From Bacillus sp. KH172YL63 (GTDB taxonomy: Bacteria; Bacillota; Bacilli; Bacillales; Bacillaceae_B), in assembly GCF_011398925.1 (NCBI RefSeq), contig NZ_AP022842.1:3842001-3906000 (forward strand): a stretch of DNA of 64,000 nt. Direction: 5' to 3'. A model generated the notes under the pieces. The model ran no database searches and was not told where the DNA came from. It was given only the letters and a program-made list of their open reading frames with translations. Position numbers and translations under genes: made by a program. Below, piece after piece: positions 11,643 to 49,593 of the stretch (position 1 is the first letter of the stretch; every line of letters starts with the position of its first letter).

Positions 11643-13880
11643 TTAATTTCCTAATACTGTATTTGGGTAGTAGAAGTTTAGAATCTCAACATAAGATTGT
11701 CCAGCCTCGGCTCTGACTTTAGCGCCGTACTGACTCATTCCCACTCCATGTCCAAATCCTTTTCCTTTGATAATATATTTTCCTTGGTTATTAACAATTT
11801 GCTCTACTTGATAGCTTTTGAAGTAACTACCACCGAACATTGATCGAAGTTCACTGATGGGAGAATCTTTTAATTTAAGTGTGTATAGTTTAATATCCCC
11901 AAGCAAAGCATTCTTAACATCCGTTTTAGCCTGATTCGAAATTGTTGCCTCTCCACCTAGATAGAAAACATGGGGTCTTAAACCTAATTCTTTAACCCAA
12001 TTCTTTACCACCGAAGGAAGTGTATCTTTTTCAGTCAGCACGATAGGTGCAGATTTAGTTGCCGCAAGCACCGCACCTGGCAATGCATCAATAAATGTTT
12101 CACCTTGGGCAAAAAATACATTTTTCATATCAAAATTGTATTTCTCAGCTATATCGATACTTGTTTCATAACGGTTAGATCCTGCAATTCTATCAACTTT
12201 TGAGATTCCTAACTTGCGTATTTCTTTTTCTATATCTTCAGATAAAGCACTCGTTCCTCCAACCAATGTAACTTGTTCTATATTATTTGTTTTCAAAACT
12301 TCTTTTACTGAATTACTTAGCGCGTCTTTATCTGTCAGGAGAATCGGTCTTTGTTTCTCCGCAGCATAGGAAGCGATGGATAGTGCATCGGGAGATTCTT
12401 CATTTCCACTTGTGATAAATACCTGTTTAAACTCTTTTACTTCTTTAGCAACTTTTGCAGAAGTGTCATACCTTGTGGATCCTTCTATTCTTTTTACTTT
12501 ATATCCCATTGAAGATAATTTTTGATCAACTTCATACGAGATTGCTTTTCCTCCACCTAATATATAAATATCAGAAGCTTTCAACTCTTTAATTTGGTCC
12601 ATAATGACTGCCGGAAGCTTATCAGATTCTGTTAGCAATAATGGCGATGATAACTTTTTAGCCAAGACCGCACCTGTAATCGCATCAACATGTTTATCGC
12701 CCCGACCTAAGACTACGGCGTGTGCTACGTCCCAGCCTTCTTGGGAGATTTGCATACTCGTATGGTAACGGGTTTCCCCACCAAGGACCGTTGAATAGTC
12801 CTTAGGTATACTATTACTACTTTCTCGTTCAAATTCTCCATCTGAGTTTTTCACAAAGTACTCAACAGTTACACTGCCATTGGTTTTTTTACCAGTTTCT
12901 AATCCTTTATCTGACAGTGTACTTCCAGAAACACTAATATGGGGTACCCCTACAACTTTTATTTCGTCTCCACTATGTCCTGACTTCGTAATATACTTTT
13001 TAATATAGTTTAGGATTGTAGTATCTTCACTTTTTTCAAAGGTTTTATTCCACCATAGCTCTGGTCTGATAAGATCGAGGCTTGCGGTATTAATCTGTTC
13101 TTGATTAATGGATAAGTCCCATCCAATTTGTGGATCGTAATCGTCTGGTCTAGATGGTAAATAATTAAGTTTTGTGCCGCCCCAATAATTACTGTTAGAC
13201 TCCGTGTGTCCACCATTACTGGAGGAATAGTATGCACCTATCAATTTTCCATTTTGTCGAAGCACTTTACCTTTCGTTTCTTCAACAGCTTTTGTGGAAT
13301 TTGGATGCCAACTGTAGCCCGCATAAACTTGATTAGAAATGGTATCGTCAAAGTTTGAATTATTGACTCTCCCCATGGCATAAGTCCTGGCAGCGACAGT
13401 TTGTGCTTTCAATGCTTCTACATTCCACGAAGCAGGCATTTCACCTGGTACAACACCTTTTAAATAATCTTCGAAGGGGAGTTTATTAATAGGACGAATG
13501 TATCCAGATTCAATGGTAAATGTAACTGTACCCAGATATGGCTTGTCATTGATTGAGAAACGGTTACTCTCACTATATTGCTTTGGTTCAATCGTAAATT
13601 CCTGATTATAAGTCTTAATTATTGAGCTGTTTTTGTAAAGAGCTAACTTTCCACCTTCAATTTTGACTTCGTATTTATCATTAGAGGTCAACTTAGTATT
13701 GACGTCATCTGAAATGAAATATTCACCTTTTATCATTAACGATATCGCCTTTTGGTTCCCTAGGTAGTTCCGCAATTTGACTTTCACCTGGTCATCCGCT
13801 TGTGCAAAGGCTTTCGTATCAACAGAGACCGGAGCAAAAACAAACAATAAAACTAGGAACAAAGTTATCTTTCTCTTCAT
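11643..13880 (-). CDS. lytB: SpoIID/LytB-domain protein with three CWB2 repeats
   Basis: This 745-residue secreted protein has a signal peptide at about residues 1-27. The SpoIID/LytB fold begins near residue 140 (EDYLKGVVPGEMPASW) and includes YYSSSNGGHTE near residue 218. Three CWB2 repeats follow at about 368-655. The chain then returns to the characteristic SpoIID C-terminal motif GFGHGVGMSQYGA near residue 710, so the wall-binding repeats sit inside the catalytic-type fold. B. subtilis LytB enhances the LytC amidase, while SpoIID itself is a lytic transglycosylase. The gene is last in an amidase-lipoprotein-lytB unit, 25 bp after the lipoprotein gene, with GGGAGG as ribosome-binding site. 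An amidase-modifier role is inferred from context. Confidence 0.85.
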   Translation of the reverse strand: MKRKITLFLVLLFVFAPVSVDTKAFAQADDQVKVKLRNYLGNQKAISLMIKGEYFISDDVNTKLTSNDKYEVKIEGGKLALYKNSSIIKTYNQEFTIEPKQYSESNRFSINDKPYLGTVTFTIESGYIRPINKLPFEDYLKGVVPGEMPASWNVEALKAQTVAARTYAMGRVNNSNFDDTISNQVYAGYSWHPNSTKAVEETKGKVLRQNGKLIGAYYSSSNGGHTESNSNYWGGTKLNYLPSRPDDYDPQIGWDLSINQEQINTASLDLIRPELWWNKTFEKSEDTTILNYIKKYITKSGHSGDEIKVVGVPHISVSGSTLSDKGLETGKKTNGSVTVEYFVKNSDGEFERESSNSIPKDYSTVLGGETRYHTSMQISQEGWDVAHAVVLGRGDKHVDAITGAVLAKKLSSPLLLTESDKLPAVIMDQIKELKASDIYILGGGKAISYEVDQKLSSMGYKVKRIEGSTRYDTSAKVAKEVKEFKQVFITSGNEESPDALSIASYAAEKQRPILLTDKDALSNSVKEVLKTNNIEQVTLVGGTSALSEDIEKEIRKLGISKVDRIAGSNRYETSIDIAEKYNFDMKNVFFAQGETFIDALPGAVLAATKSAPIVLTEKDTLPSVVKNWVKELGLRPHVFYLGGEATISNQAKTDVKNALLGDIKLYTLKLKDSPISELRSMFGGSYFKSYQVEQIVNNQGKYIIKGKGFGHGVGMSQYGAKVRAEAGQSYVEILNFYYPNTVLGN

Positions 13881-13905
13881 TTAATATTGCCTCCCGTCTT
13901 ACACA

Positions 13906-14625
13906 TTATTTTAAAGTAGCAGTGGATGTGTATCCATTTTCACCTGTCACTTCGATTTCTTCCTTTATCAACCCATGACCAGCAGCATAGTATCTAGTTA
14001 AAGTCGTTTCACTTCCTGCAATTTCATCTGAAACGGTTTTCACAACATATACATTTTTATATTCTTTTCCATTCATTTTCACAGTAGTATCTTCTTCAAG
14101 GACATCCCAGTCTGTATCCACACCAAGAATGCGTTCGCCTTTATTGGATTCAAAGTCTCCTAAAATACTTTTTTCACCGTTATTCTGTTCTGCATAATCC
14201 TGATAGACTAGCGTAATTTCTTCATCAGTCCACTTGTAAATTTCTGTTGTTTGAGTACTCCCTAAAGTGACAAGAAGTTGTATGTATTCTTGATTCTGGT
14301 CTACAATTTCTTCAGTGAAGAGTGTCTGACCATTTTCAACAAAAGCCCTCGGCTCACCTTTTTCTGGTCGCAGAAGGAAATACTTCTTGCTATCTTGTTT
14401 TTTATCAACCTTACTTTGCTCTTCCTCTTTTTCATCCGACTCATCATCCTCAGGAGAAGAAGGAACAGAATCCTGATTCTGTTCCTCTTCAGCTAATGTG
14501 GAGTCCTCATTCGTATTGGTTGCAGATTCGTTAGAATTTCCGGTCGAGTCTGAGGCTTTCTCTTCTGAGCAAGCTGTTAAGAATAGCAAACAGCCTACCA
14601 TGAACGCAATTTGAAATTTATACAT
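13906..14625 (-). CDS. Acidic secreted lipoprotein of the lyt cluster
   Basis: This 239-residue protein has a lipoprotein signal ending in the lipobox LTAC near residue 19, then a very acidic, low-complexity linker (about residues 20-80, rich in E, D, S and N). A compact beta-rich C-terminal domain of about 150 residues follows. I start it at the ATG at 14625 because GGAGG lies 7 nt upstream; the longer frame begins with a GTG overlapping that site. Its position between the amidase and lytB genes recalls LytA, the short acidic lipoprotein of the B. subtilis lytABC operon. It is more than twice as long and the C-terminal domain is not one I recognise, so orthology is not claimed. It probably acts at the outer membrane face near the autolysin. 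Confidence 0.75.
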   Translation of the reverse strand: MYKFQIAFMVGCLLFLTACSEEKASDSTGNSNESATNTNEDSTLAEEEQNQDSVPSSPEDDESDEKEEEQSKVDKKQDSKKYFLLRPEKGEPRAFVENGQTLFTEEIVDQNQEYIQLLVTLGSTQTTEIYKWTDEEITLVYQDYAEQNNGEKSILGDFESNKGERILGVDTDWDVLEEDTTVKMNGKEYKNVYVVKTVSDEIAGSETTLTRYYAAGHGLIKEEIEVTGENGYTSTATLK

Positions 14626-14657
14626 AGTTACTTCCTCCACTTGAAAATATAAATCTA

Positions 14658-16742
14658 CTATTTCACCAAGTAAGTTGTATCTTTCACAACGTCATCTTTT
14701 AAAGTTCCACCAATGACGTTCACATTTAATATACGTTGATCATTACCAAGATTCATTAAGAACGCTTTAATTCCCTGATCCATCTTCTGACCTGATAAAA
14801 TAAGCGGAGCCTTAGTTGACACTGCTAACGATGACGCAGCCAGTGCATCTGGGAAATTATCACCTGTCGTTAGAAAGATAGCGTCTGATTTAAAGCTATC
14901 TTTGAACTCCCATAGTACAGCTGTTAATGTTTTGTAGCGGTCTTCTCCAGCAAGTCTCTTAGCGTCCGTGGTAGCTTGGCCAACCAACCTTTCCACTGAA
15001 TTTCCGATAACCGCGTCTCCACCGATCAGGCGAACTTTTTTCCCTTTTAATAGAGATAACGATGAAGATGTGATAGAGTCCTCTTTAGTTAGCACAATTC
15101 CCCATTTTTGTGCTGTAGCAATAGGCGCTACAGAAAGGGCATCGGCAAACTTGTCTCCAGAAGCAACAAAGTAACCATTAACGCTTCCTAACTTATTTAG
15201 GATTTCTAAATTAGTAGCATACCGGTCACTTCCTTGGATACGCTCAACACCAACATTCATACTCCTAATACTGGTTTCTACTTGTTTAGAAATAGCTTCT
15301 TGTCCACCGATAATAATAACTTTATCAGCACCCAGTCTCTTCAATTCCTCTTTCACCGTTGAATTTAATGCCTCGGTCTCCGAGAGCAGTAGGGGTGCCT
15401 GACCAAATTTCGAGGACAATGGACCTGCCGATAAGGCATCTGCCGAATCATATCCAGTAGCTAAGAGAACTACTTTTTGTTCTTTCTTGACATCAAAACC
15501 ATTGGGATATAGGGATTTTGAAACTTCTACTGAAGTCATAATCCTGTCCAAACCACTCAGTTCTTTTACAGCAGGTTTATTTTGCACCGAATCACTTGAT
15601 GAAGATGACCAGAGGATTTCCTTCGAATCATTTCTGATTACCCTACCAGATGATAACTTTTTAGCTTCGTGTAATGCTTGCTTATAATCATAATAATCTT
15701 TCTGTTTAGTGCTTGATTGATAAACAGAATAAATCGGTTTAAGTGTGTTCGACCAGAGAATCCAACCGTTTTCTTTATTTACTATATAGCTTTCATTTGT
15801 TGATTTCGCATAAGAATATGCTTGATCATATGAATAGAATTTTTTCTCAGCAACATCTTTACCATAATACACAATGTAATTTTCGTTATTGTAAATCGAT
15901 TTCTGATTATATTTATCAAAAACGGTTACTAATACTTTTTTACTATCAGCAAATTTAACCGCTTCTTCTTTTGTCGCTTTTACAGCTAATCTTTCATTAT
16001 TAGAATTGTATACTTCATATACTTTAAAGTATTCTTCTACACCTTGTGTTGCAGCCTTAGCTGCAGACCATTGGAAGTCGCTGGTTTTAATTCGGTTCTC
16101 CTCTTCAGCATTTGTCATATAGCCTAGTTCTAGTAAAACAGATGGTGATTGAGCATTCCGGATAACATAAAATGCTTCATCTGCGTGAATCCCTCTATCA
16201 ACTGTTTTAAGGTTACTAACCATATTAGGATGGATTTCTTCCGCCAATCGTTTACTGTCAGATAAATATTTGATTTGTAATGGATCATGAGGCCAGCGAG
16301 AATCATAGTATTTAATCCCGTCATAATAGTAAGTTTCTGTCCCTTTTACATATGGCGAACGCGGATGACCATTATGGTGCACGGAAATAAATACCGTTTG
16401 ATCATTATTTCCAGCTATCTGACTATTAGCATATCTCATCCTCATATCTAGATCTCCACCATTCCCAGATATGTAACTAGCAAAATCCTTATCTGTTTCT
16501 CTCGTCATCCTAACATCATAACCTTTATCTTTCAGTAGGGACTGTAGCTTTAAAGATACGAGAAGATTTACATCTCTTTCACACACTCTTGTAACATTTC
16601 CTGTTAACCCGCAAGTCCCTGTATGTTTTCCACCGTGCCCTGGGTCAATGATGACTCGCTTTTCTGCTGAAGCACCATCTGCTGATGCAAGCATGATAAG
16701 TCCCATTGAAAGTGCCATAGAAGCTAATAATTTTTTCTTCAT
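14658..16742 (-). CDS. lytC: N-acetylmuramoyl-L-alanine amidase with three CWB2 repeats (LytC-like)
   Basis: This 694-residue secreted autolysin has a signal peptide at 1-26. An Amidase_3 domain spans about 28-245, with zinc-ligand regions VIIDPGHGGKHTG, a glutamate in CERDVNLLVS, ISVHHNGH, and the late LLELGYMTNAEE. A linker at about 250-385 holds three roughly 40-residue repeats ending in YIVYYG, WILWSN or EILWSS. Three CWB2 repeats fill about 396-694. B. subtilis LytC has the same two parts but with CWB2 repeats at the N-terminus (recalled); here they are C-terminal. It heads the amidase-lipoprotein-lytB unit and has GGAGG as ribosome-binding site. It cleaves the bond between MurNAc and the stem peptide. 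Confidence 0.9.
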   Translation of the reverse strand: MKKKLLASMALSMGLIMLASADGASAEKRVIIDPGHGGKHTGTCGLTGNVTRVCERDVNLLVSLKLQSLLKDKGYDVRMTRETDKDFASYISGNGGDLDMRMRYANSQIAGNNDQTVFISVHHNGHPRSPYVKGTETYYYDGIKYYDSRWPHDPLQIKYLSDSKRLAEEIHPNMVSNLKTVDRGIHADEAFYVIRNAQSPSVLLELGYMTNAEEENRIKTSDFQWSAAKAATQGVEEYFKVYEVYNSNNERLAVKATKEEAVKFADSKKVLVTVFDKYNQKSIYNNENYIVYYGKDVAEKKFYSYDQAYSYAKSTNESYIVNKENGWILWSNTLKPIYSVYQSSTKQKDYYDYKQALHEAKKLSSGRVIRNDSKEILWSSSSSDSVQNKPAVKELSGLDRIMTSVEVSKSLYPNGFDVKKEQKVVLLATGYDSADALSAGPLSSKFGQAPLLLSETEALNSTVKEELKRLGADKVIIIGGQEAISKQVETSIRSMNVGVERIQGSDRYATNLEILNKLGSVNGYFVASGDKFADALSVAPIATAQKWGIVLTKEDSITSSSLSLLKGKKVRLIGGDAVIGNSVERLVGQATTDAKRLAGEDRYKTLTAVLWEFKDSFKSDAIFLTTGDNFPDALAASSLAVSTKAPLILSGQKMDQGIKAFLMNLGNDQRILNVNVIGGTLKDDVVKDTTYLVK

Positions 16743-17384: not shown

Positions 17385-19421
17385 TTATTCGTTATTTAAA
17401 TCATCAATTCTCCACGCCTTAGGTAAAGAAATAGCATCTTCTCCACCTAAAATAAAGTACCCCTGTTTATTTTCAAACCACTTCGTACTCTCTTCAATAT
17501 TGGATTGAGAAGGCCCCACTAATATCACAGGACCTTTTAATCTTCCTGCCAATGGTCCCGCTGTAAGGGCATCTGGATAGTTTTCACCCGTTGCAAAATA
17601 TAGATACGGAGAAGGATATTGCTTACCAAAAACTTGCTGAATATTCTTGTTTGTAGAATATCGATCTTCGCCGGCAATACGGTAAGGACTCGGAAGCCCA
17701 TTCTCAACTTTTCTAGAAATCACTGCTGTTCCACCAACAATATACGTTTTAGTTACTTCATTGGTATGAATGTATTTCTTTATTGAATCTGATATCGATT
17801 CCTTCTTCACAAACAAAATAGGATAGTTTAAAGCCCCGCTATAGCCCGCTACTGATAAAGCATCGGGATAATTTTCGCCAGAAACAATAAAGGCTTTGTT
17901 AGTATGATATGGTATCGCTTCGTTAATGGCTAAATTTGTCTCATATCTGGTATCACCGAATAGCCTATGAATACTAAGAGGTAAACGGTATAACGCGCCT
18001 TCTACATCATCAGAGAGCGCATTTTCCCCTCCCACAATGACTACTTGATCTGCTCCGAGTCTCTTAATCTCTTCAATTACTTCTTCTGAAACCTTCGATC
18101 CCTTTACCAACAAGATTGGACAATCTAAATATGATGCTAATGGAGAAGCTGCTAAACTATCAGCAAAAGTATCTCCACTAGCTAAAACGACAAATTTCCC
18201 TGAAAGCTTTTGGTTATCAATAAACCATTCTTTTTCATCTAAACCTTCCCAACCCTTTTGGGAAATCTCAACTGATGTTGATACGGAAGTAGGACCTGCC
18301 AACCTGTTCTTAGTATGGATATAATCCAAGGCTTCATAAGCATTTACAAGTCCTTCACCTAGCGAATAATCAGTCTCTATCGTATCTGAAGTATTTTCAA
18401 TAATTCCCTTAACCTGATGACCACTCAAATATGGTGCTTGCTGTTTTACCATTGCTGCGACGGAACTGACAATTCCAGTTGACATACTTGTACCTTCCAT
18501 TATAGTGTATCCACCTATACCTGTACTAAAGACATCTGTACCTGGTGCCACAACGTCCACAGATCTTCCGAAGTTTGAGAACTCTGCCTTCTTTAATGTT
18601 GAAGTATCAACACTACCCACCCCCAGAACACTTGAATATGCTGCGGGGTAAACCACCATTTCTGCATCATCATTTCCTGATGCTCCTACTACCAGCACTC
18701 CTTTGCTGGATGCATAATTAATAACATCTTCCAAAGATTTCATATTAGAATAACTGCCCAGACTTAGGTTAATGATATCAACACCTTGATCCACTGCGTA
18801 TTCAATCCCTTTAATAACTGTAGACATAGAGGTTGTATCATCTTCAAAAACCTTAATCGGCATAAGTTTAACATTTTTTGCTATAGAAGAGACTCCAACG
18901 GAATTATTAGTAATTGCCCCTATCAATCCTGCTACGTGTGTGCCATGCCCTTCATGATCAATGGGTGCCTCTCCTTCTTGAACAAAGTTCTTACCCTCTA
19001 CAATTGTTTCTTTTAGGTCAGGATGATTCAAATCTATTCCAGAATCAACTACTCCTACAACAATCGTATCTAAAGGCTTGTACTTTTCCCAAGCACTGGA
19101 TATATTCATTCTGTCGAATAATAAAGATTGAGAGTCGTAGAAAGGATCATTTGTGACTGAAGATAATAAAAATGCGGGTTGATCTACTTCAGCATACTGA
19201 ATTTCCGGATCCTTATTTAATTCCCTAATCCAGTTATCTTTCTCACTTATAGGTACTGAAAGGACGTCTAACTTAAATTTCCTTTCTTTCGTTACAGCCA
19301 TCGTCTCAACATTTTGTTTATACTTAATCATAATATTTACTTTCTTTTCTGCTAACGCGGGATTTACCTGGATGAACATTGCAGATAGAATAAGTACCAT
19401 AAAAAGCCTTAAATACTTCAT
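17385..19421 (-). CDS. Subtilisin-family (S8) serine protease with three CWB2 repeats
   Basis: This 678-residue secreted protease has a signal peptide at 1-24 and a short propeptide. The S8 catalytic domain has Asp in VVDSGID near residue 126, His in HEGHGTHVAG near 160 and Ser in EGTSMSTG near 311. Three CWB2 repeats fill about 375-678. All three catalytic residues are intact, so activity is expected. I start it at the ATG at 19421, 7 nt after GAGGTG; the longest frame begins at a TTG upstream of that site. It lies behind a second, larger CWB2 protease, each with its own terminator. The substrate is unknown; processing of neighbouring surface proteins is plausible. Confidence 0.88.
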   Translation of the reverse strand: MKYLRLFMVLILSAMFIQVNPALAEKKVNIMIKYKQNVETMAVTKERKFKLDVLSVPISEKDNWIRELNKDPEIQYAEVDQPAFLLSSVTNDPFYDSQSLLFDRMNISSAWEKYKPLDTIVVGVVDSGIDLNHPDLKETIVEGKNFVQEGEAPIDHEGHGTHVAGLIGAITNNSVGVSSIAKNVKLMPIKVFEDDTTSMSTVIKGIEYAVDQGVDIINLSLGSYSNMKSLEDVINYASSKGVLVVGASGNDDAEMVVYPAAYSSVLGVGSVDTSTLKKAEFSNFGRSVDVVAPGTDVFSTGIGGYTIMEGTSMSTGIVSSVAAMVKQQAPYLSGHQVKGIIENTSDTIETDYSLGEGLVNAYEALDYIHTKNRLAGPTSVSTSVEISQKGWEGLDEKEWFIDNQKLSGKFVVLASGDTFADSLAASPLASYLDCPILLVKGSKVSEEVIEEIKRLGADQVVIVGGENALSDDVEGALYRLPLSIHRLFGDTRYETNLAINEAIPYHTNKAFIVSGENYPDALSVAGYSGALNYPILFVKKESISDSIKKYIHTNEVTKTYIVGGTAVISRKVENGLPSPYRIAGEDRYSTNKNIQQVFGKQYPSPYLYFATGENYPDALTAGPLAGRLKGPVILVGPSQSNIEESTKWFENKQGYFILGGEDAISLPKAWRIDDLNNE

Positions 19422-19543
19422 TTTCCGCACCTCACATTTAAACAATTACATTAACTAACAGTATATCGAATAATTGTATAAAAAGTCTAAGGAATTTAGA
19501 ATGAAAATACTGAAAATTCCACAATTACATCATTTCACAATAA

Positions 19544-19586: not shown

Positions 19587-22500
19587 TTATTTAGTTACTT
19601 TTTTGTGAAGAGAATCTCTAACTTTTTGATCTACAGCAGCTTGTCCACCAAGTACCGTAATAGTAGAAATATTGTTTGTATAAACATATTTTGTTAAGAA
19701 AGAGTCTACTTCTTTTGGCAGCTCATTCGGGTCTACCAGCAATAACAATCCATTGTTTGAAGTGACAAGCGGTGCAGCAGATAATGCATCCGGGAAGTTC
19801 TTACCACTTGCTACGAATAGTTCTGGAGATCCATTTGAAAATTTCTTCAGAATCTCTGCAAGAGTTCCATATCGGTTCACACCAGCAAGTCGATTGACTG
19901 AAAGTGCTACGGAGTCTGCTTCTTTAGCCACTTTCTCTGAAATTGCTGCTGTACCTCCTAATACATACACATCTTCATTCTCCAGAAGAGATTTCGCTTC
20001 TTCTGATAGTGTTTTTCCATCAGTTAGTACAATTGGCATATTATATTCTCCTGCAACAGCAGCGGCACTCAGTGCATCTGCAAAGTTTTCACCTGTTGCC
20101 AAGAATACGCCATCTCCAGAGAAGCCTTTTTCTTTTAGTTTTGCTGCTACAGCAAGGTTTGTACCATAACGAGTGGCCATACCTTCGGTTACTAAACGCT
20201 CTATATTTGAAGAGTTAATGCTGAGACTATTTAATTGGGTGTACACTTTAGGAGAGATAACTGCTTCTCCACCTAGTAAATACACATTTTCTGCTCCTAA
20301 ACGCTCAATTTCATTCAGCACTTCTTTAGTTAGCTTACCATCTTTTCCAACAGGTAGAATAGGTGCCTCAAGCTCTGAAGCTAATGGTCCAGCTGATAGT
20401 GCATCCGGGAAATTATATCCTGTAGTAAGGATGACCGTCTTACTATTTCCTTTAGGGAAACCATCTGGATATAGCTTTTTAGAGACCGCCAAGGCAGTTC
20501 CGATTCGGTCTTCACCGGCAACTTCAGTTATGATATCCCCATCCGCTTTAATTGGTAATAAAGACAGTACCTCATTTGTTTTCGCATCTAATAGATATAC
20601 CGCGCCGATGTAATTGTTTGATTCTTCAGGAGTAGTAATCTTCACATCTGAAGTTAGTGTTTTTCCTACACCTAAAGACGTTGTCTTATCAGAAACTTCA
20701 ATCTTTCCTTTTCCTTTTTCACCTGGCGACAGAACACTGAGTTCTGTTACAGAAAGATCAAGTTTCGTACTTGGATCCTGAGTGGCATAACCCTCGATTG
20801 CAATAGTATACTTTCCGTCCGCTAGACCGTTTAAAGTTACCATTTCATCCGATGTTCCACCCGCAGACATGCCAACTTGGTTTCCTTTTTCATCCAAGAT
20901 ATAAAGATCCACATCATCGCTTGCATAGGATGGATTTGACGTTTTCACAGATAACGAAACATTGTTCTTGATGTTAAGTTCTTGTTTATAAAATTGATTG
21001 TTACCTGGTACTTCTACTCTTGAATTCACTGTTTTAGGGCTGCTAAATTCAGCTGATGCTAACTTAACATCCTTTTTGGTAGATAAGTAGTTTGAAAATG
21101 ATACTGATTTGGTAATTGCTTTGTTTGGTTCCACTTTACCGAGTTTGATTTCCCCTGGCTCTGCCACAACATCTTGGACAACCGCTTCTAGTTGATATTT
21201 ATTTATCTCTTTCCCTTTCTCAGGTCCAAATGTTCCATAGACATGCACTTCCCATACACCTGGTTTCGGTGATTTGAATACATCATCTTCTACATCCATA
21301 CCTCCGTATCCTGCATACCCTTTAAATTCACTCACTTCTACACCATCTGGATCAAAGACGATCATTCGCACTCTGCCTTTGTAATCATTATTTTCACTTA
21401 AGGCATTGAGAGAGAATCGTAGTTCACTCACCCCAGGCTTCACTTCAAAAGTATACCCCTTAGATTTAGAGGCTTGAACCTCGTCTGTAATTCGAGAACG
21501 GAAGCGATTTTCTTTAGTGAATTTCTTTCCAACAATAATGGTTTGCGCTGATCTCGCCTCAACATATGCGGTAGACTTATCATCAATTAACAAAGTACCG
21601 GCATTGGTACCCTCTTTCAGTTTAGAAGAATCATAGTCTACAGTGATAAGCTTGTGCTCTCCAGGAGCAAGCTTTACCTCATGATCAGATGGCGTGAACC
21701 AGTCGTCTGATGCTGACACCATGAGATCCTTGGATTCATCTGTATTATTTTCTATAAGCACTTCAACTGTATCTGGAATATCTTTGTTTCGGACATAAAG
21801 GCCCGGCCCACCTGAAATTTTCTCACCGTGATAAACGGTAACATCCACTTCTTTAATATCATTGATAAAATGTTTACGTAGATACTCATAGGCTGCAGGA
21901 ACATTAATTAAGCCTGCACCTTCTTGGGCACGGTTATAACCATCAAGATGGTCTGCAGTTTGAATCAAAGCTTCCCGTGCAATCTCGTAGTTAAAAGGAA
22001 TACGGTCTTTTAGCGCGGCAGATTTCAATAGGGCGACTGCCCCGGCAACATATGGTGAAGACATACTTGTACCTTGCATCACAACATATGGTCCAGCTTG
22101 AACTGGATGGGCTGCATATGCAGAACCAGGTCCAACGATATCAGGCTTCTGGTTTCCAATTTCATTCGGCCCTACAGAAGAAAAATACCATAATCCTTCT
22201 CCTTCTTTAGGTGTTCCATCTTCATTTTTACCATAAGGATAAGCATTGTATTCTGTAGCCCACATTTCAGAAGTTATATGCGCTCCAACTGAAATAATTG
22301 GTCCTACATCTCCAGGTGACCCAACTGTATCAATTCCAGGTCCGGAATTACCTGCTGATGTGACAAAAATGATATCCGTCATTTCACTTAATAACTCCAT
22401 TAATTCTCCATACGAACCCATACCTTCATTTAGATCAGGTGAAGAACCTAAACTTAAGTTTGCTACGTCAACATCAAATCCTCCAGCTGCTTCAGGGAGC

Positions 22501-40689: not shown

Positions 40690-40720
40690 CGAATCGAATT
40701 CATAACATGAATTCGATTCG
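40690..40720. repeat. Perfect 14-bp inverted repeat
   Basis: CGAATCGAATTCAT and its exact reverse complement are separated by three bases, 17 bp after the stop of the dehydrogenase gene. It may be a terminator or processing hairpin, but no strong T-tract follows on the minus strand, so read-through into the glycosyltransferase gene is possible. Confidence 0.75.
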
Positions 40721-40737: not shown

Positions 40738-42051
40738 TTACAAACTCCAGTACGTATATCCTTCTTGCTCACAATCTTTTCGGTTAAGAACGCTTTTCAC
40801 ATCTACAATCACTTTCTGTTCGTTTGCATACAAGTTATTAAAGAAATCTAGGGTATACTCCTCTTTAAATACTTTATGAGCTACAGCAAGTACAATGCCA
40901 TTTAAGTCCTTGAGTTCTTCTTTCTCAACCAATTCAATATTATATTCTCTGAGCACTTCTTCTTTATCAGCCACAGGGTCATGAACCAACACTTCGATTC
41001 CAAAATCCTCCAGTTCTCTGATAATGTCAATTACTTTAGTATTTCTAACATCTGGACAATCTTCTTTGAAAGTTAAGCCAAGCACAGCCACTCTGCTTCC
41101 TTTCACAGGTTGCTCTGCTTTGATCAGCTTTTTGATGATGTTACTTGCTACATACTTACCCATGTCATCATTGATTTTTCTTCCTGCCAATATAATTTGT
41201 GAGTGATAACCTAACTGCTCAGCTTTATATGTGAAGTAATAAGGATCTACCCCAATACAATGTCCTCCTACAAGTCCAGGAGTGAATTTTAAGAAATTCC
41301 ACTTTGTACCTGCAGCTTCAAGGACAGCATTTGTATCAATATCCATTTTATTAAATACCATTGCAAGTTCATTCATGAAGGCAATATTAATATCTCGCTG
41401 TGAGTTCTCAATCACCTTTGCCGCTTCAGCAACTTTAATTGATTCTGCCCTGTAGACGCCGGCTTCAATGATTGCTCCATAAACGTTTGAAACAATATCA
41501 AGGGTTTCTGCATCCGAACCTGAAACAATTTTAATGATTTTTGTTAAAGTATTAACTTTATCTCCCGGATTGATGCGTTCTGGAGAGTAACCCACCGTGA
41601 AGTCAACACCAAAAGTTAATCCTGATTCTTTCTCAAGAATCGGTATACATACCTCTTCTGTAGTACCCGGATAAACCGTAGATTCAAATACAACTACAGA
41701 CCCTTTTGATAAATTCTTTCCTACTATTTCACTTGCCCCGATAACAGGTGTGAGGTCAGGTGTCTTATCACTATTGATTGGCGTAGGCACTGCCACTACA
41801 TGAAATTTACAATCTTTCAGGTTTTGTCCATCATTTGTGAAATGAATGGTAGTGTTTTTTACTTCCTCGTCTCCCACTTCATTCGTGACGTCGATCCCAT
41901 TGATGTATTTTTCTAATTTGTTGGTATTTACGTCGAAACCAACCACTTTAAATTTTCTTGCGAATTCAATAGCTAACGGAAGGCCAACATATCCTAAACC
42001 AATGACAGAAATTTTTTCTTCTTTATTTTGCAACTTCGTAAACAAATCCAT
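40738..42051 (-). CDS. Nucleotide-sugar dehydrogenase (UDP-HexNAc 6-dehydrogenase, TviB/WbpO type)
   Basis: This 437-residue enzyme is of the UDP-glucose/GDP-mannose dehydrogenase family. The Rossmann motif VIGLGYVGLPLA lies at residues 16-27, STVYPGTTEE near 123, YSPERINPGDK near 154, the catalytic cysteine in GGHCIGVDPYY near 260, and GLTFKEDCPDVRNTK near 320. The GHCIGVDPYY signature and the YSPERINPG segment are typical of enzymes oxidising UDP-GlcNAc, UDP-GalNAc or UDP-ManNAc, unlike the UDP-glucose enzyme TuaD at 9255. The product would be a HexNAc uronate for a wall or capsular polymer. The precise substrate cannot be read from sequence alone. Confidence 0.85.
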   Translation of the reverse strand: MDLFTKLQNKEEKISVIGLGYVGLPLAIEFARKFKVVGFDVNTNKLEKYINGIDVTNEVGDEEVKNTTIHFTNDGQNLKDCKFHVVAVPTPINSDKTPDLTPVIGASEIVGKNLSKGSVVVFESTVYPGTTEEVCIPILEKESGLTFGVDFTVGYSPERINPGDKVNTLTKIIKIVSGSDAETLDIVSNVYGAIIEAGVYRAESIKVAEAAKVIENSQRDINIAFMNELAMVFNKMDIDTNAVLEAAGTKWNFLKFTPGLVGGHCIGVDPYYFTYKAEQLGYHSQIILAGRKINDDMGKYVASNIIKKLIKAEQPVKGSRVAVLGLTFKEDCPDVRNTKVIDIIRELEDFGIEVLVHDPVADKEEVLREYNIELVEKEELKDLNGIVLAVAHKVFKEEYTLDFFNNLYANEQKVIVDVKSVLNRKDCEQEGYTYWSL

Positions 42052-43004: not shown

Positions 43005-45449
43005 CTATTCCATTAATTTTCCACTCACTACATCACTTACAGCTTTCTCACCGCCAAGAATATAGAAATCTTTCGCTTTCATATCTTTAATGGCTTTTGA
43101 TGTAGACGCTGGAAGGTCGTTTGGTTGAACCAGAAGCATAGAAGCATCTTCTTTCGCGGCAAGTACTGAACCTGCTAAAGCATCAGCGAAGTTTTCCCCA
43201 GTTGCTACATATGCTGCCTTTGATGGATTAAGGTCAGTTGCGATTTTAGCTGCCGTTTCATAACGGTCAAGACCAGCATAACGCATTGCATCAGGAAGGG
43301 ACTTAAACACTTTTTGATTGACCACGGCTTCCCCACCGACTACAATGGTATGCTCAATTCCTTTTAATGCTTTTACCGTTTCGGCTGGAAGTTTATCAGA
43401 TTCAGTTAGTAAAATCGGATAACCGTTTTTCGCTGCGTATGAAGCGACAGCCAGGGCATCAGGAAAATTCTTACCATTCGCGATCACCGCTTTTTCTTGA
43501 GAACCACCTAAACTTGCAGCAATGTTCACTGCTGTTTCCCAGCGATCCTGTCCACCAATACGTTCTACATCAACCCCCATTCCTTCTAGCTGATATTCCA
43601 CGTAATGACTTACAGCTTCTGTTCCTCCAAGAATGATAACATTTTTGGCACCAAGGCGTTTGATTTCTGCTTTTGCCGCAGCGTTTAAAGAGCCTTTTTC
43701 TGTCAGTAGGATAGGCGCATCATGTTTATAGGCAAGAGGTGCACCTGCAAGGGCGTCAGGGAATGAGTCCCCACGTGCAAGAATAACCGTGTCTGCAGTT
43801 TCCCATCCTTTCATAGAAATTTCGACCGCTGTCTCGTAACGCGTTTCACCAGTCAATCTAGTCACTTCAGGTGCTTCTTCTTGAACGATTCTATTCTCTA
43901 CGGCAGGTGAAACAGGATTATTCTTTTCAATGTATGAAGTAAATACTTCAAAGTCAACGACAAACAGCTCAGTAAGACGCCCTTCTTCTTTAGCTTCCTT
44001 GAACATTGTATAGCCGTCTCCGCCATTTGCAGTAAATGCATTCGTAGCTACTGAATAGGTCATTTCCGGATCGATTTCTTCAAACCCGTCTTTCGTCATG
44101 ACCTCTACATGCCACACTCTTTCTCCTGCAGGTTTAGACACATCGTACTTGTAGTTAATACCAGATACTTGAAGGAATTCACCCGGTGCGTCTTCCCCTT
44201 CCACTCTTGCCACACTGTGTTCAAGGGCAGATACAATTTCTTCTCCAGTTAAATCAAGTGTAACAAGATTGTTTCCGAATGGCATGGTCGTCAATACTTC
44301 TCCGAGTGTAATGTCTCCTGCATCAATAGAAGCACGAATTCCTCCACCATTTTGAAGTCCGATGTATGTTTCAACAAACTCATTCGCTTTGGCCACCATG
44401 CCATCAGCAATCAGGTTTCCTAAGTTCGTCTCTTTTCTTCTTACATCTGCCCGTTCACCGTTCAGGGCCACTTCAGTTTTACCGATAACTTCTGCTTTCA
44501 ACTCTTCCAGAGGAGCTTTGAATTCATTCACCTTGGCAAGGGCGTCCTCGTTTTCTTTATAGTCCTTAAGGTTGATGACTTCACCGTTGTGGTCCGTCAC
44601 TACACCTTTGTCATCGAAGGTAACATCCAATAAGCCAAGTAAATTTAAGTATTCTCCCGCTTGAACAATCACAGTAGGCTCATCTTTGTCAATGACAACA
44701 GGCTCTTCTAGAACTGTATGAGAGTGGCCGCCCACGATGATATCAAGCCCATCCACTTCCTCTGCCAATTCTAAATCGTTAGAATAACCAAGGTGAGAAA
44801 GTGCAATGATTTTGTTCACACCTTTATCCTTCAGCATTTTAATAGTGCTTTTGGATTTTTCAACAGCATCTTCAAATACCACGTTTTCTCCTGGATTTGA
44901 GATAAATGCCGTATCCGGAGTCGTCAATCCATATATTCCAATCTGTTCTCCATCGACCTCTTTAATCATCGCAGGATAGACATTCCCGCCGTCTCCCGGC
45001 TGTCCGATTGCATTTTTGAATAATGGCTCAAGATCTTTATCACCCGTAACAGTTACATTTGATGAAACCATCGGGAAGTTCATATTTTTAATGAAGTCTG
45101 CAAGCGTCTTGGAATCTTTATCGAATTCATGATTACCAAGTGTCATCGCGTCGTACTTCAGCTCATTCATAAAGTGAAGATCAGCTTGTCCAAGGTATTG
45201 ACGGAAATACAAAGTCCCTGAAAATACATCACCGGCGTCAACTAGTAAAGAGTTGGCTTTTTCTGTGCGCAGCTCATTTACCGCTGTCACTAAACGAGGA
45301 TATCCTTCTACATGGGCATGGGTATCATTTGTATGCATGATGGTTAGATCAAATTCTCCTCCTTCTGCAGAAGCAGGTGATGCTGCAAGAATGGTAGCAG
45401 CAAGGGCTGCAGTTGATAACACGGCGTATAAAGGTTTCTTAATATTCAT
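43005..45449 (-). CDS. Wall-anchored 5'-nucleotidase (UshA-like) with three CWB2 repeats
   Basis: This 814-residue secreted enzyme has a signal peptide at 1-28. A metallophosphatase domain spans about 32-260, with IMHTNDTHAHVEG, VDAGDVFSGT, LGNHEFD and VGGHSHT metal ligands. The 5'-nucleotidase C-terminal substrate domain lies at about 325-490 (ETNLGNLIADGM, NGGGIRA, TANGGDGYTMF). Three CWB2 repeats fill about 526-814. It should release phosphate from extracellular nucleotides or UDP-sugars at the cell surface. A TATAAT box lies near 45510-45515, about 60 bp before the start. The gene is next to the CWB2 nuclease, whose products it could use. Codon and base use is more GC-rich than the CWB2 genes at 24-39 kb. 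Confidence 0.9.
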   Translation of the reverse strand: MNIKKPLYAVLSTAALAATILAASPASAEGGEFDLTIMHTNDTHAHVEGYPRLVTAVNELRTEKANSLLVDAGDVFSGTLYFRQYLGQADLHFMNELKYDAMTLGNHEFDKDSKTLADFIKNMNFPMVSSNVTVTGDKDLEPLFKNAIGQPGDGGNVYPAMIKEVDGEQIGIYGLTTPDTAFISNPGENVVFEDAVEKSKSTIKMLKDKGVNKIIALSHLGYSNDLELAEEVDGLDIIVGGHSHTVLEEPVVIDKDEPTVIVQAGEYLNLLGLLDVTFDDKGVVTDHNGEVINLKDYKENEDALAKVNEFKAPLEELKAEVIGKTEVALNGERADVRRKETNLGNLIADGMVAKANEFVETYIGLQNGGGIRASIDAGDITLGEVLTTMPFGNNLVTLDLTGEEIVSALEHSVARVEGEDAPGEFLQVSGINYKYDVSKPAGERVWHVEVMTKDGFEEIDPEMTYSVATNAFTANGGDGYTMFKEAKEEGRLTELFVVDFEVFTSYIEKNNPVSPAVENRIVQEEAPEVTRLTGETRYETAVEISMKGWETADTVILARGDSFPDALAGAPLAYKHDAPILLTEKGSLNAAAKAEIKRLGAKNVIILGGTEAVSHYVEYQLEGMGVDVERIGGQDRWETAVNIAASLGGSQEKAVIANGKNFPDALAVASYAAKNGYPILLTESDKLPAETVKALKGIEHTIVVGGEAVVNQKVFKSLPDAMRYAGLDRYETAAKIATDLNPSKAAYVATGENFADALAGSVLAAKEDASMLLVQPNDLPASTSKAIKDMKAKDFYILGGEKAVSDVVSGKLME

Positions 45450-45624: not shown

Positions 45625-48600
45625 TTATTTCTTTAATTGCGTCATTACGTCCTCGCTTACAGCATTCTTTCCGCCAACAACGTGGAAGTTGCGAATATCG
45701 TCCACTTCAATTGCTCTCATGATCCCTTCAGGAACTGTATCTTTCTTCACCAGTAAGATTTCAGCCCCTGCTTTAGCAGCAAGAACAGAACCTGCCAGTG
45801 CATCAGCGAAATTGCCTCCGGTAGCTACGACCGCATGATTGGTTTTCGGAGTTAAGTGTTTGGCGATTTCAGCTGACGTTTCGTAACGGTCGGAACCACT
45901 ATAGCGGGTCGCTTCTTCAAAGCTTTCAAAAATCTTGTTGCTGATGGCATTTTGCCCGCCCACGACAATCTTTTCGTCAATTCCCTTTAATACTCTCTCT
46001 GAAGCATCCGACAATTTATCTTGAGCAGATAGAACAATCGGGTATCCATTCTGCGCTGCATAAGAAGCAACAGATAGTGCATCAGCGAACTGATATGCGT
46101 TTGCTACAATTGCTTTTTCAGGATTTCCGTCTAATCTGGCTGCAATATTCGCAGCTGTTTCAAACCGGTCGGCACCTGAAATACGATTTGTTTTCAGGCC
46201 TAATCCTTTCAGTTGGTATTGAACATACTTAGATACCGCACCTTCACCGCCAAGGATGATTGCTTTCTTTGCACCCAACCGCTTAATTTCTTCCTGTACC
46301 TCATCGTTCAAGTAACCTTTTTCGGTCAATAAAATCGGCGCATCATGTTTATAGGCAAGGGGAGCTCCTGCAAGGGCATCAGGGAACTGATCCCCTCTGG
46401 CGATGACCACCGTCTCTGCAGATTCCCATCCTTCTTCAGAGATTTCTATGGCTGTTTGATAACGATCAGCACCGGAAATACGTTCTACCTTTTTGCCAAA
46501 CTGAATTTTTGCAAGTACAGGATCGTGATCACTTGCACGTCCATCCTCTTCACTGAAATCAGCGTTAATATTAATGCTGTCAATCATGGTTCGATGGGCT
46601 AAATTATTCGTCACCAGGATGTGATCAAGCACTTGGGAATTCCCTTGATAAATGTAAGTGTAACGTTCCTTCGCAGGGAGCTTTTCCATCATATTGGTTA
46701 AAACGTCCCCTTCCAGCGTATCGATCGGTGCTGAGAATTCGAAGTCGTTTAAGTCACCGAGGACCACTACGTTTGCATCTTTCACTGTCTCTTTCACGTC
46801 ATCTACAAAATGATTGATGACTTTTGCCTGTTCCAAGCGCTGCACTTCGCTTCCGAGAACAACAGGATGATCGGCACCAAACAATGCCCCGTCCCCACCC
46901 TTGGAGTTAAAGTGGTTCGCTACAACAATAATTTTTTCACCATTAAACATAAATTCTGCAGCAAGGGCTTTACGTGAGTCTTCAAATGCTTTGTTCATAG
47001 GATCGACTCGACCTGGATTATGAGTAAGGCCATCCTTGTCCACACCAACAGATGTGACCGCATCTCCTGTTTGTTTATCCGTCAATTCGACACGCTCTGG
47101 GTTGTAGATGAATCCGACACGGATATTCCCCCCAGGTTGACCACCGTCTGTTTTGTCTGCAGGCGCGATGTCTGTAAACTTGTATGTCGGTCCACCTGCT
47201 TCTTTTATCGCTTTGATGATTGTTTCGTAAGATTCACTTGCATCGGTCGTGCCATCGTCTTCAGGACCGTTATTATCCTGTACCTCGACAAGTCCGATAA
47301 TGTCCGGGGTTTTTAAATTCTTGACGATTGATTCGGCAATCTTCTCTACTTTGCTTTGATCAATGCCGGCATAGAAGTTTTCGATATTATAAGACGCAAT
47401 GGTCAAGTCTTCTTCTCCTGAAGTAATTCCCGTAACCTCACGGACAGTTCCGCCATCAATCACTTCAGGGAAGTCACCTGTTGGACGGATTTTGAAGTTA
47501 CTATAGTCATAGCTAACGTTACCGATTACAGATCCATCGAGCATATCGCCTGTCTTCGCATTGATCTTCATACCATCAACGTCAATCATCATACGCTCAG
47601 GATTATAATCTTCAGGTGAAATCAGAATGCCCCCTGCTCTTGTGCGAAGCTGATCTTCACTTGTGTTCACAATGACCGGCAGTTCATCGTATTTTACTGG
47701 ACCCGTGATCGTCGCATCTGGAATTTCAATCAGCATACCTTCAAGGCTTTCATAAAAATCCAGTCCATCTGTTGCCGGGTCGAATGTTTTCATGTCATCA
47801 TCTTCTACCACTTCAGTAGGCGGAACCCGATCCTCTCCCATTACAACAGGTGCAGGGACAGTGTTGCCAGAGGATTCTATCGCAACGGCCGATGCGGTAA
47901 TTTGTGTCGTAAGAAGATCTTTCGCATCATCATAGCCATCTTCTCTCCACTCTTTCACCTGTCCAGAGACACTTACTTTGTCTCCTGCTTGAACAGAATT
48001 TCCCCTTGCGTAAACATAGATCCCCTCGGATGTCGCCACGTTATCATCCGGTGCCGCTTCCTGCATATAGAAAGCATTGGAACCGGCTTTCGCGGTCACA
48101 ATTCCTTCAACATTTGTAACAGTCATATTTTCATAAGGGGAAGTATGTGAGCTTCCTTGAATATCGTGAATGCTTAAGCCATCTGCAGACTTTAGGATTT
48201 TGTAAGTATAGGTGGCTATCTCACTCGTCTTACCGTCTTTTATCACCACGGCTTTAATGGTCACATCTGAAGTAAGTTCTATCGGCGCAGTATAAACCGG
48301 ACTTGAAGATGTAGGGTTTGTCCCATCCATTGTGTAGTGAATAGTCCCGCCTTCAATTGCTGTTTGAAGTGTAACCTCCGTTCCTTCAACAACAGAGCCT
48401 GAACCAGTACTTGCCGCTACAGAAAATGCCTTTTCAATAACATCTAATGAATGGCGCGGTACCAGCTTATATTCATTAAAGTTATAATCGACTACTCCGC
48501 GAAGAATTTCGTAGGTTTTTCCCACTTCGAGAATAGATGAATCACTTGGTTTAATGACAAATTTCCCTGCTGTATCTTTGGCAGTGAAGTTCCCATTATT

Positions 48601-49593
48601 GTCCTTGGATTCAACAGTGACATTCATGAATTCGACAAACATGCCTTCATGTTCTTCACCATTCGCAGATGAAAGGTCTGTAGAAGTGAGGGAAGCTGGT
48701 GCCGGCACCCCTTTACTTTCCATGGTCACTTCAACATGTGAAGCAGTCGCTTCGATCTGCTGCATGCCGTAATAGTCCCCAAGTTTACCTTCAGCGATTA
48801 TTTCATCACCAGGCTGGGCTGGCAGTCCGCTTCCACGGATGATGACACCCGCAGTTCCATCTTGAATGAATAAATTCGTTTGGCCTCCGGCCTCGAAGGA
48901 TGCTGTTGCAACCCCCTGGACTTTCACGACGGTACCTTTTGGTGCGGTGCGTGCATCTGCAATGGTGGATAGTTCTACTGGAGTCGTATCTAGGGTTGGG
49001 GTATCAGATAAGTGAGTGCCAAGGTCAGTGAAAATATCCGTTCCTAAATTCGTCCACTCTGTTGACACCTGAAAAGCATCGGTTACATCGGTATCACCCG
49101 TCATCACAGAATCATTTCGGATGATGGTGACATCCTTTGCGAAATCTGCAGTCGAGCCCACTTGTCCGATTGAATCAATGATTGTTCCGTTTTTCTTTAG
49201 TGTGATTGGATCATTGCCGTTGAAGTTAATAAATTTGTCTTTAATATCAGCTTGATCGAGGATTGCCTTTGCTGCCTGTTCATGGGAAAGTACCAAAGTA
49301 TCCCCAGCTTTTAAAGTGCCTGATAAAGATAAAGACTTATCAGCAGTCTCCGCACCATTTGTATGTAACTCTAAGGTGTAATTCGTTAAATCAATGGATT
49401 CCCCGGTACCGTTATAAAGTTCAATTGCTTTATTATAACTCGTACCTTCAATATATTCAGAAATGATTAAATCCTGAAAAGCTTCATCCGCAGCTGATAC
49501 CTGCTGGGATAAAGGCGGGGCAAACAAACTTAAAACCATACTAGAGGCAACTGTTACACTTAACAATTGACGCTTTATTGCATTACCACTCAT
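45625..49593 (-). CDS. Extracellular nuclease (ExeM-like) with lamin-tail, OB-fold and CWB2 modules
   Basis: This protein of about 1322 residues has a signal peptide at about 1-35. A lamin-tail domain opens with LIISEYIEGTSYNKAIELYN. OB-fold-like regions follow (about 210-320 and 460-700), plus a chitobiase-type beta domain near 385-460 (IHYTMDGTNPTSSSPVY). An endonuclease/exonuclease/phosphatase domain spans about 725-1025, with catalytic SYNIENF, LVEVQD, VLGDLND and SDHDPV. Three CWB2 repeats lie at about 1036-1322. The order matches ExeM/YhcR-like extracellular DNases. I start it at the ATG at 49593, 6 nt after AGGAGG; the longer frame starts before the site. It should degrade extracellular DNA at the wall. 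A candidate PhoP-box-like array lies upstream. Confidence 0.88.
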   Translation of the reverse strand: MSGNAIKRQLLSVTVASSMVLSLFAPPLSQQVSAADEAFQDLIISEYIEGTSYNKAIELYNGTGESIDLTNYTLELHTNGAETADKSLSLSGTLKAGDTLVLSHEQAAKAILDQADIKDKFINFNGNDPITLKKNGTIIDSIGQVGSTADFAKDVTIIRNDSVMTGDTDVTDAFQVSTEWTNLGTDIFTDLGTHLSDTPTLDTTPVELSTIADARTAPKGTVVKVQGVATASFEAGGQTNLFIQDGTAGVIIRGSGLPAQPGDEIIAEGKLGDYYGMQQIEATASHVEVTMESKGVPAPASLTSTDLSSANGEEHEGMFVEFMNVTVESKDNNGNFTAKDTAGKFVIKPSDSSILEVGKTYEILRGVVDYNFNEYKLVPRHSLDVIEKAFSVAASTGSGSVVEGTEVTLQTAIEGGTIHYTMDGTNPTSSSPVYTAPIELTSDVTIKAVVIKDGKTSEIATYTYKILKSADGLSIHDIQGSSHTSPYENMTVTNVEGIVTAKAGSNAFYMQEAAPDDNVATSEGIYVYARGNSVQAGDKVSVSGQVKEWREDGYDDAKDLLTTQITASAVAIESSGNTVPAPVVMGEDRVPPTEVVEDDDMKTFDPATDGLDFYESLEGMLIEIPDATITGPVKYDELPVIVNTSEDQLRTRAGGILISPEDYNPERMMIDVDGMKINAKTGDMLDGSVIGNVSYDYSNFKIRPTGDFPEVIDGGTVREVTGITSGEEDLTIASYNIENFYAGIDQSKVEKIAESIVKNLKTPDIIGLVEVQDNNGPEDDGTTDASESYETIIKAIKEAGGPTYKFTDIAPADKTDGGQPGGNIRVGFIYNPERVELTDKQTGDAVTSVGVDKDGLTHNPGRVDPMNKAFEDSRKALAAEFMFNGEKIIVVANHFNSKGGDGALFGADHPVVLGSEVQRLEQAKVINHFVDDVKETVKDANVVVLGDLNDFEFSAPIDTLEGDVLTNMMEKLPAKERYTYIYQGNSQVLDHILVTNNLAHRTMIDSININADFSEEDGRASDHDPVLAKIQFGKKVERISGADRYQTAIEISEEGWESAETVVIARGDQFPDALAGAPLAYKHDAPILLTEKGYLNDEVQEEIKRLGAKKAIILGGEGAVSKYVQYQLKGLGLKTNRISGADRFETAANIAARLDGNPEKAIVANAYQFADALSVASYAAQNGYPIVLSAQDKLSDASERVLKGIDEKIVVGGQNAISNKIFESFEEATRYSGSDRYETSAEIAKHLTPKTNHAVVATGGNFADALAGSVLAAKAGAEILLVKKDTVPEGIMRAIEVDDIRNFHVVGGKNAVSEDVMTQLKK

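Follow-up and report, generated by a model that had tools for sequence, protein, structure and literature searches.

What do the CWB2 repeats of Bacillus surface proteins hold on to, and why are their genes gathered beside those for wall polymers? The question is raised by a stretch of 64,000 nucleotides of Bacillus sp. KH172YL63 (contig NZ_AP022842.1, positions 3,842,001 to 3,906,000), hereafter the window, in which an array of CWB2 proteins lies next to a set of tua-type genes. The window holds a Bacillaceae wall locus, degSU–LCP–tagO–tua–gtaB–lytB/lytC, enlarged by another ten CWB2 proteins. From the gene content, synteny, adjacency and module descent that we observed, we propose that the triple CWB2 modules (trios) dock these proteins to an anionic wall glycopolymer, that the tua product is the likeliest such polymer here and that the module is not tua-specific; we give this reading a probability of about 0.6. 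Each CWB2 protein would be exported, and its trio of unlike repeats would dock it non-covalently to the polymer. Docking would keep wall-remodelling and scavenging enzymes on the cell, with proteases, peptidoglycan and nucleotide hydrolases, leucine-rich repeats and other domains as partners. Across Bacillales the module would accompany different anionic wall-polymer loci. The genome carrying the window is designated G000 below; comparison genomes bear G-numbers, their genera g-numbers and fetched loci L-numbers.

A PF04122 profile search at the curated cut-off counted 45 CWB2 repeats in G000, 36 of them within the window. The original prediction, made from the letters of the window, had announced twelve proteins with three repeats each, joined to different partners. 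All 12 open reading frames (ORFs) indeed have three PF04122 stretches, and a Pfam scan shows that the partners differ; the array starts at 11643 as foreseen and ends at 49611, not 49593. The module is C-terminal in nine proteins, N-terminal in two and inside the SpoIID/LytB protein in one, secretion having been judged by eye from the N-termini only. Three more CWB2 proteins, two subtilases and one protein of 411 amino acids, are encoded about 11 to 63 kb past the right window edge, and a single stretch of about 115 kb takes in all 15 CWB2 proteins of G000, whose genome measures 4.25 Mb.

Besides LytB and LytC, treated below, the array holds on the minus strand two S8 proteases, S8a (17385..19445) and the large S8b with a PPC domain (19587..23750; 71% in G003, G007 and G010), and a PPC-type protein (24884..26383) whose short N-terminal domain is PPC-like by eye and has no Pfam match. 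An NlpC/P60 endopeptidase with an N-terminal module (26576..27910), a leucine-rich repeat protein, LRR (33076..35001), and protein 747 (35051..37294) follow on the same strand, as do a 5'-nucleotidase/metallophosphoesterase (43005..45449; 84% in G003) and EEP, in which LTD, CHB_HEX and endo/exonuclease-phosphatase domains precede the trio (45625..49611; 83% in G003). Two proteins are encoded on the plus strand: CarbReg, an N-terminal trio with carboxypeptidase-regulatory-like domains (28114..31410), and an SLT-type domain with SH3_3, the latter below its cut-off (37498..39315).

The model for CWB2 anchoring is Clostridioides difficile. According to the available part of PMC4973711, CWB2 trios bind the anionic polymer PSII in this species, peptidoglycan treated with hydrofluoric acid (HF) is left unbound, all three repeats are needed and are non-interchangeable by position, and the cwp genes lie beside the PSII locus. 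Crystal structures place the PILL motif in trimerisation and the PSII contacts across all three repeats (PMC5842191, likewise in part). The window resembles the cwp/PSII locus in its many CWB2-trio proteins with varied partners beside a polymer locus, in the PILL motif and, as far as sequence tells, in position-specific repeats. A PILL-like motif is kept in all 36 repeats, with substitutions mostly at the P (a pattern caught 35, and the last reads PIML in the alignment). For 35 of the 36 repeats, the most similar repeat of a different protein stands at the corresponding position (1, 2 or 3), which argues that the trio moves as a unit. Two arginines, which were not mapped onto known contacts, are strongly conserved, in 32 and 35 of the 36 repeats respectively, and the module of the PPC-type protein matches the solved Cwp6, Cwp8 and S-layer chains. 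Binding of the trio to an anionic polymer is carried over from the established C. difficile work, and anchoring in this strain appears likely by analogy, since the repeats keep the PILL motif, the positional differences and the two arginines. A simple charge argument does not hold, as the isoelectric points of the modules spread from 4.8 to 9.5. The two systems differ in that C. difficile has PSII, made up as a hexasaccharide-phosphate polymer, and is thought to lack a TagO homologue (available parts of PMC4973711 and PMC5842191), whereas the window has tua and TagO-type genes; no main S-layer protein was identified in the window strain. Non-covalent attachment to a secondary wall polymer by way of a trimeric anchor is also described, in the parts of the literature available, for SLH proteins with pyruvylated polymer in Bacillus anthracis and Paenibacillus alvei; G000 differs from these in having 0 SLH matches genome-wide.

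The polymer genes fill the left end of the window, where a tua set had been predicted at 0.8-11.4 kb. TuaB, C, D, E, F and G are each the best match of one ORF and, with a TagO-type and a gtaB-type gene, lie at 0.8-11.5 kb as expected. Most scores are under the NCBIfam cut-offs: only TuaB exceeds its own, and TuaG is 0.3 bits short. Leftwards from lytC, the lipoprotein-like ORF and lytB, and all on the minus strand, one meets a terminator-like hairpin (11591..11621, a consensus match only, with 11 in the scan against 10.5 expected), a gtaB-type UTP-glucose-1-P uridylyltransferase (10576..11463; NTP_transferase, 61-66% to the genes at g43 and g11 tua loci) and a TuaD-type UDP-glucose 6-dehydrogenase (9255..10556; 644 bits, cut-off 700). 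These are followed by a glycosyltransferase-like ORF recognised by eye and without a family match (8072..9115), the Wzy-type polymerase TuaE (6580..8031; 367 bits, cut-off 400), a TuaC-like glycosyltransferase (5360..6559; 214 bits, cut-off 550) and a TuaF-like protein (4654..5358; 154 bits, cut-off 340). The glycosyltransferase TuaG (3832..4590; 399.7 bits, cut-off 400), the TagO-type initiating transferase (2403..3461; 67-68% to its positional equivalent in g43 genomes) and the flippase TuaB (841..2301; 595 bits, cut-off 580) complete the series. Beyond the left edge come, outward, a glycosyltransferase gene, an LCP gene, a UPF0029 gene, degS and a degU-type gene. The array had also been described as bracketed and interrupted by polymer genes. 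The interruption at 39.5-42 kb exists, with a group 1 glycosyltransferase (39531..40703, minus) and a dehydrogenase (40738..42051, minus) that is a TviB-type UDP-HexNAc 6-dehydrogenase (513 bits, against 132 for TuaD) and no second TuaD. Relatives of this enzyme stand beside CWB2 genes in G254 (74%) and G067 (57%). The polymer genes on the left are real too, but none was recognised among the Pfam-scanned ORFs on the right, so that "bracketed" overstates the case.

Part of this arrangement was already known. In B. subtilis, lytC and lytB lie between tuaA and lytA/tagU/mnaA/gtaB, and tagV appears in the same table (PMC8753576, available part), so that the adjacency of the predicted "anchor-plus-ligand island" is real and its place is not new. 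We took the genomes of g43 to represent the B. subtilis group, going by TuaE scores and by a CWB2 count of six repeats or slightly more. In five of them the order tagO-tuaG-F-E-D-C-B-LytC-LytB was read directly, Amidase_3 and SpoIID being confirmed in those checked; gtaB follows LytB within about 3 kb in G122, G287, G149 and G267, but the part of G223 that was retrieved did not show it. The window shares with the tagV–tua–lytCBA–tagU–mnaA–gtaB region the CWB2-bearing LytC and LytB beside tua, with tagO, gtaB and LCP genes near. It also has degS/degU-type and LCP genes on the tagO side, where degSU sits in B. subtilis as well. It differs in its ten further CWB2 proteins, in the TviB-type dehydrogenase and glycosyltransferase and in a gtaB joined to tuaD. 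No TuaA-type sugar transferase was found among the 38 window ORFs scanned, the whole genome not having been searched for it. Where B. subtilis has LytA, the window has a lipoprotein-like ORF of 244 amino acids (13906..14640, minus) without a Pfam match. This ORF has 5 database homologues by sequence; it is kept between LytC and LytB in G003, G007, G010, G125, G199 and G293 and beside LytC alone in G188, and is apparently fast-evolving at a fixed position.

What had not been foreseen is a differently placed and differently descended anchor on the same LytB/LytC pair. The LytC-type protein of the window (14658..16742, minus) has Amidase_3 first and the CWB2 trio last, as in G125 and G199, whereas the order is CWB2 then Amidase_3 in g43 and g11. 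In the LytB-type protein (11643..13880, minus) Pfam and alignment place the trio inside the SpoIID/LytB core (residues 366-651), as in G125 (370-657); it is C-terminal in the congeners G003, G007 and G010 and in G199, and stands at residues 62-350, ahead of SpoIID, in g43 and g11. Without its module, the window LytB shows 45-52% identity, along some 390-430 residues, with six LytB proteins from g43, g11, g61 and g62, so that the core is common to all; for the amidase part of the window LytC, identity is 36-43% with g43/g11 and 60-62% with g61/g62. In a quick tree the g43/g11 LytC and LytB modules form one clade, apart from the window-type LytC and LytB modules. Approximately unbiased (AU) tests rejected a single clade of LytC modules (p 1.5e-7) and of LytB modules (p 0.0035); the groups were set by catalytic domain and tested after the first tree had been seen, and a G293 (g7) protein first labelled LytB was excluded for lack of a SpoIID core. 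Plain orthology of the pair with the B. subtilis type is not upheld by domain order and these tests. Given the different chain places and different descent on the same pair, the trio was probably joined to, or replaced on, LytB/LytC at least twice, as judged from the sequences. Such repeated fitting would argue that anchoring of the pair is selected.

How general the neighbourhood is was examined in 299 genomes of Bacillales, with phylogeny taken into account only in those counts that are stated by genus. We set the thresholds ourselves: at least three matches for CWB2 (10 single-match genomes dropped from 87, leaving 77), E<=1e-60 for TuaE (38 of 54 listed genomes kept, 16 weaker ones dropped) and E<1e-20 for the teichoic-acid polymerase family PF04464 (123 of 136 kept). 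CWB2 occurs in 77 genomes, TuaE in 38 and both in 23. TuaE accompanies CWB2 in 23/77 genomes against 15/222 without CWB2 (odds ratio, OR, 5.9), and in 11/32 against 5/81 genera (OR 8). Besides G000, 22 genomes carry CWB2 together with TuaE, and distances were measured in 20 of these; G054 and G245, which share a genus with five of the 20, were left out. A CWB2 gene lies within 17 kb of TuaE in 17 of the 20, covering 8 of 11 genera; contig ends cut short two of the three exceptions, G073 and G114, but not G074. Two kinds of TuaE locus occur: one is a tua operon with TuaD, the other combines TuaE/TuaF with TagO and a TviB-type dehydrogenase.

We call CWB2-rich those genomes with at least 15 first-look candidates, matches being scored to about 18-20 per genome; there are 46. 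One CWB2-rich, TuaE-negative genome was taken from each of 17 of 18 genera, which gave 56 stretches of up to 20 kb around dehydrogenase genes, several of them shorter because of contig ends or adjoining neighbours; one dehydrogenase match with E>1e-10 was left out. A CWB2 gene turned up no more than about 10 kb from some UDP-sugar dehydrogenase gene in 12 of the 17 genomes, 9/12 of those without and 3/5 of those with PF04464, and in 13/56 stretches against 0/20 in a small control of grid windows from four genomes. The enzyme in the 13 positive stretches is TviB-like in six and TuaD-like (51-63%) in six; in L105 it is only 30% like TuaD. One fetched locus, L002 of G003, is a second polymer cluster beside a CWB2 protein, with glycosyltransferases, a dehydrogenase, an Asp2-like protein, a heparinase II/III-like protein, an ABC ATPase and a UDP-GlcNAc 2-epimerase.

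A third survey covered 13 teichoic-acid genomes, a non-random set chosen for listed PF04464 places and for few enough CWB2 proteins to be listed completely; it used only the listed PF04464 places, some weaker ones being missing. CWB2 lies within 10 kb of PF04464 in 6 genomes (in a seventh, G232, at 13.9 kb), where about 0.2 are expected by chance; it is equally close to a dehydrogenase in 2, where about 0.3 are expected. CWB2 genes thus stand beside polymer genes above chance in the TuaE, dehydrogenase and PF04464 surveys, much as cwp genes stand beside the PSII locus and as had been proposed; their adjacency to wall-polymer genes is non-random and recurrent.

Several observations weigh against our reading. 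Of the 39 CWB2 proteins in the 13 genomes, 13 are encoded within 10 kb of either marker and 26 farther away or on another contig. In G018, hundreds of kb separate the LytC/TagO locus from the S8a/S8b pair and from the EEP/5'-nucleotidase pair. Adjacency therefore fails for most of the set; CWB2 clusters regularly found apart from polymer genes had been named as the outcome that would speak against the prediction, and the 26 distant proteins go some way toward it. No CWB2 gene is near a dehydrogenase in 5 of the 17 genomes (G029, G044, G115, G141, G227), nor near either marker in 6 of the 13 (G084, G144, G192, G227, G302, G304). The lack of PF04464 leaves room for other phosphate polymers, and the neighbourhood may reflect a shared wall function and not an anchor with its ligand. 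A literature search, weak on subscription journals, found no paper that tests the ligand of a CWB2 module in Bacillus, nor any data on its binding.

By elimination, the likeliest ligand in this strain is the tua product, perhaps together with the polymer to which the TviB-type dehydrogenase contributes, since G000 has no match to SLH and none to PF04464, while B. subtilis matches PF04464 in the same search. A general rule of mutual exclusion between CWB2 and polyol-phosphate teichoic acid was considered and rejected. Among the first 13 genomes of the window's genus, CWB2 exceeded the cut-off in 6/8 without and 0/5 with PF04464; a larger draw of the genus gave G192 and G302, which carry both, and at order level PF04464 occurs in 36/77 genomes with CWB2 against 87/222 without (p 0.28).

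We would go one step further only tentatively, the odds being somewhat against it: the trio may be an adaptable anchor for whatever is the main anionic glycopolymer. It would have been fitted to LytB/LytC independently in at least two lineages, and the S8b, EEP and 5'-nucleotidase modules would have been kept while the adjoining polymer genes were exchanged (tua, TviB-type or teichoic-acid type). What the trio recognises would in that case be some feature common to chemically unlike polymers, and a uronic-acid polymer would play the part of PSII where polyol-phosphate teichoic acid is lacking.

A rather unlikely explanation, to be taken seriously all the same, is that the neighbourhood reflects only shared wall function and common descent, the ligand being a common wall feature such as the linkage unit or peptidoglycan and not the adjoining polymer. 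The nearby CWB2 protein has LytB or LytC as its best match in 8 of the 13 positive dehydrogenase stretches, in some through the module alone, and TagO-type genes recur at these loci. In g43, moreover, tua and teichoic-acid genes share one region (PMC8753576, available part), so that adjacency there cannot separate them. However, five positive stretches (L098, L105, L109, L133, L146) have no LytB/LytC best match, and LytB/LytC modules of at least two descents make common descent of one fused pair insufficient for all cases. The loss of binding to HF-treated peptidoglycan in C. difficile, where a TagO homologue is thought absent, also speaks against it (PMC4973711, available part).

The view of the original prediction, that CWB2 here and in relatives binds a teichuronic-type, glucuronate-containing polymer and that the cluster is its anchor-plus-ligand island, is improbable in this specific form. 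The co-occurrence of CWB2 with TuaE by genome and by genus and their adjacency in 17 of 20 genomes favour it, and comparison of gene order bears it out to that extent. However, 35 of the 46 CWB2-rich genomes have no TuaE, and the neighbouring dehydrogenase is often TviB-type (6 of the 13 positive stretches). Uronic-acid loci as specific partner were set aside once the teichoic-acid genomes were compared, where CWB2 adjoins PF04464 in 6 and a dehydrogenase in 2. In G074 the tua locus has no CWB2 gene within ±20 kb and the single CWB2 gene lies 4.1 kb from a teichoic-acid polymerase; G192, 99% complete, has a CWB2 protein and no PF00984 dehydrogenase match. Nor do modules diverge faster where TuaE is absent: between G000 and G003, a congener without a TuaE match, the EEP module is 86% and the rest of the protein 82% identical, the 5'-nucleotidase module 82% and the rest 85%, and these modules and that of S8b are as conserved as the rest of the proteins. 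G003 keeps gtaB and a 61% TuaD near LytB, which makes a shared glucuronate feature possible for this pair.

That the ligand is polyol-phosphate wall teichoic acid seems very doubtful. Older work had amidases binding teichoic acid, with N-acetylmuramoyl-L-alanine amidase reported by Herbold and Glaser 1975 (as cited in PMC5842191, available part), and the proximity of CWB2 to PF04464 in 6/13 genomes agrees with this. Against it, G000, G003, G007 and G010 carry 41-48 repeats and no PF04464 match, and at E<1e-20 PF04464 occurs in 17 of the 46 CWB2-rich genomes and is missing from 29.

The age of the module set was read from a tree in which 53 trios of five genomes were compared. The S8b, S8a, LytC, LytB, NlpC, PPC-type, 5'-nucleotidase and EEP modules of the window group with their counterparts in other species, and no module of G000 has its sister in the same genome. 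The physical clustering of the 12 genes might suggest that a single CWB2 gene was recently amplified in tandem in this lineage; this is hardly credible, since eight of the 12 modules have same-architecture counterparts elsewhere and none has a sister in G000. The 747, CarbReg, LRR and SLT modules are on long branches without a clear counterpart and may be of recent origin. Further observations run against a pure rule of architecture: an SLT-matching protein of G018 carries a LytB-clade module, the EEP and 5'-nucleotidase modules of G018 form a weakly supported pair (81/34), and the SLT-type proteins of congeners do not group with that of the window. Species-wise concerted change of modules tracking the local polymer was not seen in the tree, save for that pair in G018. 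The EEP/5'-nucleotidase pair of G003 lies about 250 kb from its main cluster; elsewhere the set is thus partly dispersed, and its concentration in one array of 38 kb is a local feature. The closest named homologues of two window proteins are from Rossellomorea arthrocnemi (83% and 58%), which makes Rossellomorea the probable genus of the strain.

The N-terminal part of 747, a domain of about 430 amino acids, has no Pfam or PDB relative by sequence. It has 751 homologues at E<=0.001, and the 120 listed come from Bacillales, Paenibacillus, Actinobacteria and others. Some carry other Pfam modules in place of CWB2, and two Rossellomorea proteins of 501 and 507 amino acids have the domain without CWB2; in 58 family members no Pfam match was found beyond CWB2 and single weak matches. 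From source-given names we guess that it is possibly a secreted glycan-active enzyme. A PIG-L-type deacetylase with a signal-peptide-like start (32324..33076, minus; Pfam) overlaps the LRR gene by one base and has relatives near CWB2 genes in G003, G010, G067 and G018. An ORF of 190 amino acids (23993-24565, plus) has relatives (26-34%) that also stand beside PPC-type CWB2 genes in G003, G007 and G010. Right of 49.6 kb the window encodes a HEAT-like protein (below cut-off), a methionine-type ABC transporter (51179-53708), an ABC-2 protein, a TetR protein, a glutamate-dehydrogenase-type enzyme, an ECF sigma factor and two unmatched proteins. An ordinary SAM riboswitch (RF00162, 88.8 bits; 53755-53859, minus) and a 41-bp tandem repeat in 2-3 copies (53986-54112) lie upstream of the transporter genes.

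In the literature found, as far as its available parts go, a CWB2 ligand has been shown for C. difficile only. The present environmental strain, with 15 CWB2 proteins, a tua operon and no PF04464 match, and its TuaE-less congener G003, with orthologous EEP, 5'-nucleotidase and S8b modules, form a natural pair for the ligand question. If it is true that the anchor was fused repeatedly, and at different places, to one and the same LytB/LytC pair, this would be an evolutionary argument that wall anchoring of autolysin-type proteins matters.

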